A DNA stretch of 57,183 bases from Candidatus Schekmanbacteria bacterium RIFCSPLOWO2_02_FULL_38_14 (GTDB lineage: Bacteria > Schekmanbacteria > GWA2-38-11). Each line of letters begins with the position of its first letter. The stretch's first letter is position 1. The DNA is taken from positions 1 through 57,183 of the forward strand of contig MGDH01000025.1 in assembly GCA_001790855.1 (NCBI GenBank), read 5' to 3'. Below the pieces are notes generated by a model. The model was not told where the DNA came from, did no database searches, and saw nothing but the letters and a program-made list of their open reading frames with translations. The position numbers and the translations under genes are program-made. Shown here in pieces: positions 29,037 to 42,353 of the stretch.

Positions 29037-29101
29037 GACTAACGTTCGTGTTCAGCCGCGTTGTGCAGCGCAGCAACGTCAACTGCAACACGATGTTAGG
29101 C
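29037..29101 (-). repeat. attC-like integron recombination site
   Basis: Read on the minus strand it is 65 bases: R'' GCCTAAC, R' GTTAGTC, paired inner boxes TCGTGTT and AACACGA, then an unpaired G next to CAG/CTG, and a central TTG/CAA hairpin. The end CGGCTGAACACGAACGTTAG resembles the degenerate attC 3' end used for cassette PCR. The unpaired G is the extrahelical base expected in a folded bottom strand. Orientation puts the cassette gene on the minus strand to the right. Confidence 0.75.
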
Positions 29102-29113
29102 GCGCCACTAATG

Positions 29114-29698: not shown

Positions 29699-29899
29699 TC
29701 AGAACCTATCAACTGGACTAATGACACCTTTACCCCCTCGGTTCAACACGTGGGTGTATAACATCGTTGTCTTTACATCACTGTGCCCAAGAAGCCCCTG
29801 GACAGTTCTGATATCGTAACCATCTTCTAACAAATGGGTTGCAAATGAGTGCCGAAATTTATGACAACTGGCAAATTTTGTTATGTTGGATAAGTTCAA
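29699..29899 (-). pseudogene. C-terminal relic of an integron integrase (IntI)
   Basis: 66 codons. [40 protein letters not shown] contains the tyrosine-recombinase box II residues HxxR, H and the nucleophilic Tyr. The following [15 protein letters not shown] is the tail specific to integron integrases (compare VLxxGGxGVRSPLD of IntI). The N-terminal SAM-like domain, box I Arg and the IntI-specific insert are missing, so it is inactive. It reads in the same direction as the cassette, 92 bases from the cassette boundary. Its upstream end abuts a perfect 23-bp hairpin. Confidence 0.85.
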
Positions 29900-29915
29900 A
29901 GAATATCTTTGAACT
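29893..29915. repeat. Perfect hairpin at the intI relic boundary
   Basis: AGTTCAAAGA-ATA-TCTTTGAACT, 10-bp arms. It lies just downstream of the methyltransferase gene and marks the truncated end of the integrase relic; without a T-run on the minus strand it is at best a weak terminator. Confidence 0.6.
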
Positions 29916-29932
29916 CTTTTCTAATTTCAATC

Positions 29933-37783: not shown

Positions 37784-38230
37784 TTAAACCTCCCTTATGT
37801 AATCTACTGGATTCAAAACCTTTATATCAAGATTCAATCTTTTAGCTTTTCTTATCAGTTCGTCATCGCATGTTAGAAAAAAACTGCATTTTGTATTATA
37901 GGCACATGCCAAGTGTATAGCATCTTTTGCAGATAATTTTCCTTTATGCTGAAAATCTTTAGCAAGATTGTATATTTCTTTTTCCGGGCATATTCTGATT
38001 TTACAGAGTGCCGAAAGGCGATAAACTTCAATCTTTCGTTCAAGAAAAGGACATAGGATATTTTCATCTTCATGCATGAAAGACCACACCAACTCGATTT
38101 CTTTCTTTTCGGCTTTTGAAAAAATCTCTTCGCATGCTAAAGCTTCTAGTTGAATCTTGATTTGACGAGGGTCATCAAACCCGCGCTGAAAACAATTGTA
38201 ATCAAGATAAACCAAATTCCTAATCCTCAT
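37784..38230 (-). CDS. PIN-domain protein (putative toxin RNase)
   Basis: 148 residues. The first acidic residue is in LVYLDYNCFQRGFDD, a later acidic site in LSAKDAIHLACAY, and the fourth in FFLTCDDELIRKAKRL, the order of the PIN active site. Such proteins are Mg-dependent RNases, most often VapC-type toxins. The C-terminus LDIKVLNPVDYIREV is the usual last strand. AAGGAG lies almost directly against the ATG, so a later start (TTG at 38215) is possible. It forms a unit with the two small genes downstream between the direct repeats. Confidence 0.75.
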   Translation of the reverse strand: MRIRNLVYLDYNCFQRGFDDPRQIKIQLEALACEEIFSKAEKKEIELVWSFMHEDENILCPFLERKIEVYRLSALCKIRICPEKEIYNLAKDFQHKGKLSAKDAIHLACAYNTKCSFFLTCDDELIRKAKRLNLDIKVLNPVDYIREV

Positions 38231-40763: not shown

Positions 40764-41546
40764 TTAAAAATCCTTGATAAAAATTACAATATTTACATCC
40801 TTCTGTAAGTCTTCCAAGAATGCATCTATTTTACCGTAGGATACGATATCAATTAGAAAATATTCATTACTGTGCTTCTTGGATAAATCTAAATATGCAT
40901 AGTTTACTTCTAATTGAAAATTATCATTAATAATAACCGGTTCATCACTAGAGCCTATATCAACTCTGTACAAGTTATTAAAGTCGTTACATATAATGAC
41001 TGGGTAATCAAGTTTGAATTTAATAGATTCTCTATTTTTAGGAATAATTGATTCGCTTCCTCTGTAGTAAACCATTGAATTGAGACTTTGATTTAGAGCT
41101 TTATAAAATATCTCATTTTCTGTTTTTTGCTTTTTTTCATCAGCAAATAGTTTTGCAACGCTATCATCTCTTAGGTAATGATGATCCTTTGTGTATATAT
41201 TGTTTTTTTGAAGCGGAGTGATTTTTAAAACTAAATGCTCGGCTTTTACTCGATCTTTATCGTGAAACCATAATACAATCTTTTGAGGGATATATTTACA
41301 CTCAATAAATAATTTAACATTTACAGTGTCAGTACCAATTAACTTCCCATCCGATCTTTTTATATCAAACGCTTTTTCTGCAATTAAATCTATTTCTCTT
41401 GGTTTGTCAGAAACGTTATCATTATAATAAGGACTTATTAAGACAGTCCATCCTTTTTCTTTCAGGCGGTCTAAAACCGTACAGTGAAAGTTATTGCCAC
41501 TGTTGGCTATTATCTCCTTAACTTGTTCAATATCTGTTTTCTTCAT
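40764..41546 (-). CDS. Putative PD-(D/E)XK-fold protein
   Basis: 260 residues. The segment GWTVLISPYYNDNVSDKPREIDLIAEKAF...VNVKLFIECKYIPQ has the order of a PD-(D/E)XK nuclease core: Asp in EIDLI, then a strand carrying the E-C-K triad. The rest matches no family I know. It begins 17 bases after the attC-like site at 41563-41628 and on the same strand, in the place of the next gene cassette, but no attC-like site follows its stop. Restriction-like or defence functions are typical of such cassettes; the role here is unknown. Confidence 0.55.
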   Translation of the reverse strand: MKKTDIEQVKEIIANSGNNFHCTVLDRLKEKGWTVLISPYYNDNVSDKPREIDLIAEKAFDIKRSDGKLIGTDTVNVKLFIECKYIPQKIVLWFHDKDRVKAEHLVLKITPLQKNNIYTKDHHYLRDDSVAKLFADEKKQKTENEIFYKALNQSLNSMVYYRGSESIIPKNRESIKFKLDYPVIICNDFNNLYRVDIGSSDEPVIINDNFQLEVNYAYLDLSKKHSNEYFLIDIVSYGKIDAFLEDLQKDVNIVIFIKDF

Positions 41547-41562: not shown

Positions 41563-41628
41563 ACCTAACGATTGAACTCTCAGGTGCGGCGGTAGTTTCT
41601 CCACATCCTGCGGAGTGTTTTGTTAAGC
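41563..41628 (-). repeat. Second attC-like site, directly after an antitoxin gene
   Basis: Minus strand, 66 bases: R'' GCTTAAC (RYYYAAC) and R' GTTAGGT (GTTRRRY) both fit the consensus; ACTC/GAGT, CAGG/CCTG-type pairs form the stem with bulges. The antitoxin's stop codon TAA lies inside R'', the common arrangement in integron cassettes. Confidence 0.65.
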
Positions 41629-41907
41629 TCTCTTTTTCTCTAATAAATATCCTGATACATATTTATGAATGATGCTGGATATCAGCGTCTGGTAAGGAAT
41701 GCCCTCCTGAGCAGCGATAACCTGTACTTGATTCAAATCCTTTGACGACATTCTAATATTTATTCTCTTGTCTTTTTGCAGTGTATTCCTTGCATATTCC
41801 CGCAGCTTCTTAATCTCAGCCTTTGGATTTTTGATGGGTCTCCATTCTCCGCGCTCGTAAGACTCTAAAATATCTTTTTCTTCAGCGCCTAAAACCGTTT
41901 TTTTCAT
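41623..41907 (-). CDS. CopG/RHH-type antitoxin (BrnA-like)
   Basis: 94 residues. LESYERGEWRPIKN at the N-terminus and DKRINIRMSSKDLNQVQVIAAQEGIPYQTLISSIIHKYVSG form the ribbon-helix-helix pattern of antitoxins paired with BrnT-like toxins. It overlaps the toxin gene by four bases (ATGA). It neutralises the toxin and probably represses the promoter at 42189-42217. Its stop codon is inside the attC-like site, which makes this pair look like a mobile gene cassette. Confidence 0.85.
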   Translation of the reverse strand: MKKTVLGAEEKDILESYERGEWRPIKNPKAEIKKLREYARNTLQKDKRINIRMSSKDLNQVQVIAAQEGIPYQTLISSIIHKYVSGYLLEKKRA

Positions 41908-42182
41908 TTTTGTTCCCTCGCATATTTGTTTGTGGCTTTTCTGCTGGGGATAATGGTTTTTAAGAATATTTCATCACTTTCTTGAACATAAGGAACGAGG
42001 TAGGCATAATCATCAACCTTGACTGTTGCGATCTTTTGACCCAAATACTTATTTTGATTTGGGTGTTCAATTGTTTCAAGAACATCCTCACGTTCCATCA
42101 GAATAACGACTTGCTCAAAACTAATTCCTCGGTTTTCCTTTAACCATTCATTCTTCTCATTATCCCATCGAAAAACCTTCAC
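41904..42182 (-). CDS. BrnT-like toxin
   Basis: 92 residues with a GTG start. FRWDNEKNEWLKENRGISFEQVV, HPNQNKYLGQKIATVKVDDYAYLVPYV and IFLKTIIPSRKATNKY are the conserved parts of the BrnT-like (COG2929-type) RelE-fold toxins, predicted RNases. It is the first gene of the pair. No Shine-Dalgarno is visible, and the promoter places the transcript start at or next to the GTG, so the message is probably leaderless. Confidence 0.85.
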   Translation of the reverse strand: MKVFRWDNEKNEWLKENRGISFEQVVILMEREDVLETIEHPNQNKYLGQKIATVKVDDYAYLVPYVQESDEIFLKTIIPSRKATNKYAREQK

Positions 42183-42188
42183 ATTATA

Positions 42189-42217
42189 AATTTACGACAT
42201 TGTCTGCCTTTTGTCAA
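42189..42217 (-). promoter_or_regulatory. Promoter of the TA cassette, predicted leaderless transcript
   Basis: Minus-strand TTGACA (42217-42212), 17-base spacer, TAAATT (42194-42189). Seven bases after the -10 is the GTG start (42182). Confidence 0.65.
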
Positions 42218-42323
42218 TGCTTTTCATGGCAGAGTTTGTTAACATGAAGAAAGGGGAAGGTTGATGAATACTATCACTTATCAATTTTGGTTTCCGCGCG
42301 TTTTGGATAGCCTTAACAATAAG

Positions 42324-42353
42324 AATTAAATGGGACGGTTGTCCCCTTTAATT
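42324..42353. repeat. AATTAAATGGGAC-GGTT-GTCCCCTTTAATT hairpin
   Basis: A 30-bp palindrome of a type common between bacterial genes. It lies between the TA promoter and the lipoprotein gene; a GTTAAGG string beside it (42309-42315, minus strand) may be the outer boundary of the TA cassette. Confidence 0.6.

Follow-up and report, generated by a model that had tools for sequence, protein, structure and literature searches.

A Probable Remnant of a BrnT/BrnA-Type Toxin–Antitoxin Integron Cassette in a Candidatus Schekmanbacteria Genome

The window analyzed here, a stretch of 57,183 nucleotides, carries a BrnT/BrnA-type toxin–antitoxin (TA) pair that ends in an attC-like site and is followed by the reading frame ORF260. 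This is probably an integron cassette, the first of two (BrnTA, followed by ORF260) in a remnant that has lost its integrase, its upstream border and its final attC. Cassettes with BrnTA have been described before and this pair adds one more; a fresher point, drawn from sequence comparison, is an apparently conserved layout in which the toxin would be leaderless and the antitoxin is led by a Shine–Dalgarno (SD) site. At this locus, comparison across phyla resolves the borders of a TA cassette to the base, in environmental lineages with little-studied integrons.

Toxin–Antitoxin Genes

The toxin gene occupies 42182–41904 on the minus strand (92 codons, GTG start, 92 aa) and overlaps by 4 bases the antitoxin gene at 41907–41623 on the same strand (94 codons, 94 aa), whose product is a CopG/BrnA-type ribbon-helix-helix protein. 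The toxin matched Pfam PF04365 (BrnT_toxin) with an E-value of 1.7e-6 and 28.7 bits; as this lies under the curated cut-off of 34.5, we name it BrnT-like, not BrnT. The antitoxin matched PF12441 (CopG_antitoxin; E 5.3e-6) at 27.5 bits, just below the cut-off of 28, and gave a weak match to the NCBIfam BrnA model. That both proteins fall just under the Pfam cut-offs is a point against our reading.

A plasmid protein 52% identical to the toxin carries a BrnT family annotation. Plasmids yielded only toxin matches below 60% identity, viral collections yielded no relatives, and a sequence search of the PDB found none. The AlphaFold prediction for the toxin (pLDDT 93.5) showed the RelE-like fold expected of BrnT, which topologically resembles RelE (PMC5086665). 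Its best matches among PDB structures were RelE/YafQ-type toxins (TM about 0.5–0.64, E 3.6e-3 at best), headed by a Salmonella toxin–antitoxin complex (TM 0.64, E 3.6e-3). The predicted structure makes a ribonuclease of RelE fold the probable identity of the toxin. Comparison of coding sequences between the window and its copies shows purifying selection on both genes (dN/dS 0.06–0.17 for the toxin and 0.02–0.07 for the antitoxin).

The pair resembles BrnT/BrnA of Brucella abortus (PMC5086665) in its toxin-first order, RelE-like fold, ribbon-helix-helix antitoxin, overlapping operon and expected autoregulation. Unlike the Brucella system, it scores under both Pfam and NCBIfam cut-offs, and where the catalytic start of Brucella BrnT is reported as D-E-x-K, our own reading of the window toxin gives D-N-E-K.

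The attC-like Site

The cassette 3′ end is formed by a 66-bp attC-like recombination site at 41563–41628, read on the minus strand. A sequence-only reading of this DNA had placed the antitoxin stop codon inside the R″ box of such a site, with boxes fitting RYYYAAC and GTTRRRY, and the sequence bears this out: R″ is GCTTAAC (41628–41622), enclosing the TAA at 41625–41623, and R′ is GTTAGGT (41569–41563). Between them lie the stem arms L″ (about 41616–41607) and L′ (about 41584–41575), and the predicted G^TT cleavage falls between 41569 and 41568. On the bottom strand a G directly follows the AAC of R′, and the R″-L″ arm bears an extra-helical T and G (here CG); both are features of attC sites (PMC2727003). 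The 3′ end thus has the boxes, the L″/L′ stem and the extra-helical bases of an attC.

The boxes taken alone are at chance level. Three distinct strict R″/R′ pairs spanning 55–145 bp occurred in the window, and second-order Markov simulation predicted about 3.4 (6.7 when both strands are counted). When at least 8 of 9 L″/L′ pairs were required, this site alone remained, and none was found in 40 simulated windows. Fold prediction, proposed earlier as a check, gave no support: folded alone, the site showed ordinary stability (z −0.5 and +1.0), so the case is built on architecture and comparison, not on energy. A covariance model was also trained on seven attC sites, all taken from relatives and none from the window. 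It is not fully independent, because five of the seven belong to this TA family and have inherited a common R″ end; the other two are attC sites of other cassettes. With filters off, 41563–41628 headed the window at 19.5 bits (E 0.02), followed by a runner-up at 11.0 bits. The score is modest, and the stem of the window site carries a bulge of 2 nt, compared with a single base in most relatives; both, together with the non-canonical 5′ border described below, count against the cassette reading.

Three other ways of detecting attC were tried and discarded. Fold energy alone was uninformative, choosing R′ by the lowest constrained energy selected over-long sites, and a loose stem grammar placed the site among false positives.

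Cassette Borders and Distribution of Relatives

One genome scan recovered 27 toxin relatives, most of them 74–89% identical and nearly full length (closest 79–88%), in Nitrospirota, Deltaproteobacteria-labelled, Smithella/Syntrophus, Brocadiaceae and other genomes. A tree of both TA genes, in which several nodes are weak and the labels of metagenome-assembled genomes can err, required 10 phylum changes, compared with 10.1 for shuffled labels. Close copies therefore appear, as far as sequences can tell, to have moved between several bacterial phyla.

The relatives include copies with complete cassette borders. Canonical 5′ borders (GTTAAGC) lie at −53 to −69 from the toxin start, and full attC sites occur at the same position as the window site. 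Among 21 copies, mean pairwise identity was 0.26 before −54, 0.58 at −45 to −36, 0.93 at −36 to −24, about 0.80 within the genes and 0.32 right after R″. Two copies from different phyla (L034 and L037), with genes 96.6% identical, begin to agree exactly at CGTTAAGC. In other genomes the homologues adjoin attC sites, as a discrete unit would: one relative in a Smithella genome (L026) has attC on both sides and several others have it on one side. With the attC model, 33 sites were detected in the same Smithella genome and a further genome (G400) had 11. An intI above the family cut-off was present in 11 of 21 host genomes versus 53 of 386 background genomes (Fisher p 6e-5), a comparison in which the hosts are related, not independent, and the assemblies incomplete. 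No intI was found in the flanking sequence available for these TA loci. These borders, the attC sites on both sides in L026, the host attC arrays and the intI enrichment indicate, by sequence comparison, that the TA family travels as a cassette; with the window-excluded attC model, they uphold the earlier identification of the pair as a TA gene cassette.

The pair could instead be an ordinary chromosomal or plasmid-derived module whose attC-like site is a chance palindrome, and both the chance frequency of the boxes and the unexceptional fold would suit this. We consider it extremely improbable: a model built without the window ranks the site first, relatives carry a full attC at the same place, and the collapse of identity coincides with the predicted borders.

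Two copies have unusual surroundings. In L022 (around 3001) the TA copy lies between near-identical sequences of ~90 bp in direct orientation, an arrangement that insertion into a duplicated gene fragment, or between its copies, could produce. In L039 (around 2945 and 3555) the left border is ATATTAAGCC in place of GTTAAGCC and the 3′ site is very short, possibly an insertion at a non-canonical target.

State of the Window Copy

Although the window copy has kept its 3′ border, a canonical 5′ border (GTTRRRY) is absent, and for this reason we class the cassette as decayed rather than intact. GTTAACA at 42243–42237 (minus strand, position −61), with two mismatches to the consensus, may be a decayed border or a chance occurrence. 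The nearest relative (L021), 91% identical over the genes, retains GTTAAGC where the window has GTTAACA; likeness between the two stops at ATTGACA upstream and GCTTAA downstream. In the comparison with relatives suggested earlier, cassette borders could be read in the copies; the order-level relatives G002 and G003 showed no empty site, synteny with them ending upstream of the lipoprotein gene.

The only intI match in the window is a truncated relic. It spans 29705–29920 and covers only profile residues 243–314, a 72-residue C-terminal fragment that shares 67–69% identity with the integrases encoded by the Syntrophus and Smithella hosts. The rest of the genome assembly gave no match above the intI family cut-off, and an intact intI with attI beside an array, as in a complete integron, was not found. 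The claim that the cassette carries everything it needs is not supported for the window copy, given the lack of a canonical 5′ border and the reduction of the nearby intI to this fragment. An integron integrase would once have moved the cassette through recombination at G^TT on the bottom strand of attC in its folded form; with no 5′ border and no intact integrase, it is presumably now immobile or nearly so.

A second attC-like palindrome, at 29037–29102, adjoins the intI relic. Its minus strand folds well (z −2.7), and it was missed by the covariance model built from the relatives' attC sites. The consensus suggests that the plus strand is its top strand, an odd placement 3′ of intI.

The 5′ side of the cassette is abutted by a RAYT/IS200-type mini-element remnant (42246–42346, plus strand). 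Pieces 83–93% identical to it lie on three other contigs of the same genome (C34, C6 and C36 of G000), one of them adjoining a REP-associated-type transposase-like ORF; the members of this short RAYT/IS200-derived family have ends like GGGGACGTTGTTGA. Such a position invites the idea that this element, not an integrase, delivered the unit, and an IS200/605 element is found beside a cassette cluster with BrnTA in H. halochloris (PMC7923331). However, the other copies of the element found in this genome carry no TA genes and the TA relatives have different flanks, so that delivery by the element seems very unlikely.

The ORF260 Neighbour

ORF260 (40764–41546, minus strand) is a probable second cassette gene without an attC of its own. 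It begins 16 bp beyond R′; at its other end a convergent reading frame lies 23 bp away, and no attC was detected there. Homologues were found in 2 of 385 other genomes searched. One, in L054 (44% identity), is directly followed by an attC (GCATAAC...GTTAGGC; 14.8 bits, E 0.076) and then by another ORF. The other, in L055, lies near genes that we read as HsdR-, DarT- and macrodomain-like, and no attC was found at that locus.

The sequence-only reading had left a choice between an off-site insertion and a broken array. In the former case, an integron integrase would have inserted a single BrnTA cassette at a non-classical site of the attG type, just upstream of ORF260 as an ordinary gene. Only one attC is detectable here, another BrnTA with an attC-like 3′ end stands alone elsewhere in the genome, and insertion of cassettes outside integrons has been reported (Loot et al. 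2024, as cited in PMC12901181). As far as that citation describes them, attG-integrated cassettes likewise present a lone attC without an integrase in a chromosome; they differ from the present case, in which the neighbour is probably a cassette too and no empty target site was found. A start 16 bp past R′ is typical of cassette genes, and the L054 homologue leads directly into an attC. We therefore give single insertion the smaller, though still appreciable, share of probability. The broken array is favoured on the strength of the L054 homologue and the attC behind it; that this is one instance only, at 44% identity, and that no attC was found at the L055 locus count against the two-cassette reading.

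ORF260 had no match in Pfam, NCBIfam or PADLOC and no relatives in viral or plasmid collections. By our own reading, its EIDLIA...FIECK segment resembles a PD-(D/E)XK nuclease motif, and ORF260 may be a defence-related cassette gene.

Promoter and Expression Layout

Upstream of the toxin gene, a promoter/operator block of ~36 bp (42183–42217, minus strand) comprises a −35 box TTGACA (42217–42212, at −35 from the GTG at 42182), a spacer with the palindrome GACAATGTC, and a −10 box TAAATT (42194–42189, at −12). The block TTGACA-AAAGGCACACAATGTCG-TAATTATAT-start is ungapped and of the same length in 22 copies, with TTGACA at −35 and TAT at −6 to −4 each in 21–22 of them. It is the most conserved part of the unit (identity 0.93 at −36 to −24 versus 0.80 in coding sequence), and since synonymous divergence to the window is about 0.9 or more for most copies, this conservation is not due to recency alone. 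The block leaves no space for an SD site, and no SD-like word precedes the toxin in any of the 22 copies, whereas GAGG precedes the antitoxin in 21 of 21 aligned copies; in the window it is GAGGG at 41915–41919 (minus strand), within the toxin gene.

This geometry would place the transcript start at the toxin start codon, and the comparison of the 22 copies favours the leaderless promoter proposed earlier. We only infer such a start, because the −10 hexamer matches TATAAT weakly, at 4 of 6 positions in the window copy and at 3 of 6 in most others. The weak hexamer, like the missing empty site, is a point against our overall reading. It would fit a transcript beginning upstream of the conserved block, with the block serving as operator only, and the spacer palindrome is indeed a likely operator. 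This alternative we judge unlikely, given TTGACA at −35 with fixed spacing in 21–22 of 22 copies and relatives in which the cassette starts only about 18 bp above the block, leaving no room inside it for another promoter.

Under the leaderless reading, RNA polymerase would start on the toxin start codon or immediately beside it, and the resulting message would be leaderless for the toxin and weakly initiated there; the antitoxin would be read from its strong SD site on the same transcript. Weak toxin and strong antitoxin initiation would suggest an excess of antitoxin and hence a safe ratio. The TA pair may bind GACAATGTC in the promoter and repress itself; in Brucella the BrnTA complex binds its own promoter (PMC5086665). 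Loss of the pair would free the toxin, and the locus would thereby be kept from loss. Our tentative proposal, which we hold a little short of even confidence, is that these cassettes share a portable promoter/operator of ~36 bp that, with a leaderless toxin and a strong antitoxin SD, allows safe expression across unrelated phyla. It would amount to a compact rule for cassette expression in any host: leaderless toxin, SD-led antitoxin and an operator inside the promoter.

Comparison with Known Cassettes

BrnTA cassettes have been listed in an integron metagenome survey (PMC7370490), three BrnTA pairs occur in a Halorhodospira cassette cluster (PMC7923331), and BrnTA is among the promoter-active cassettes of oral metagenomes (PMC6557892). 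Compared by description, these integron and CALIN examples share with the window the BrnTA pair as a cassette and the upstream promoter. In contrast to them, the window copy belongs to an isolated lineage, is left behind close to an integrase relic and has the apparently conserved leaderless-toxin/SD-antitoxin layout; a limited literature search found no published description of leaderless toxin starts in BrnTA-type cassettes. The TA cassettes that stabilize Vibrio superintegrons (PMC8876359) are likewise self-promoted pairs, but here there is no large array to stabilize. The remnant would show that cassettes can outlive the integron that delivered them.

Additional Toxin–Antitoxin Candidates

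A PIN-domain protein (PF01850) encoded at 37784–38230, in the same variable region of the window, is possibly half of another toxin–antitoxin pair. Elsewhere in the genome, a second BrnTA-like pair (L094; G000:C10, about 86930–86987; locus positions 1035–1558) is by eye nearer to canonical BrnT. Its end is marked by an attC-like site scoring 26.4 bits (E 0.017), and it may be a second stranded TA cassette.
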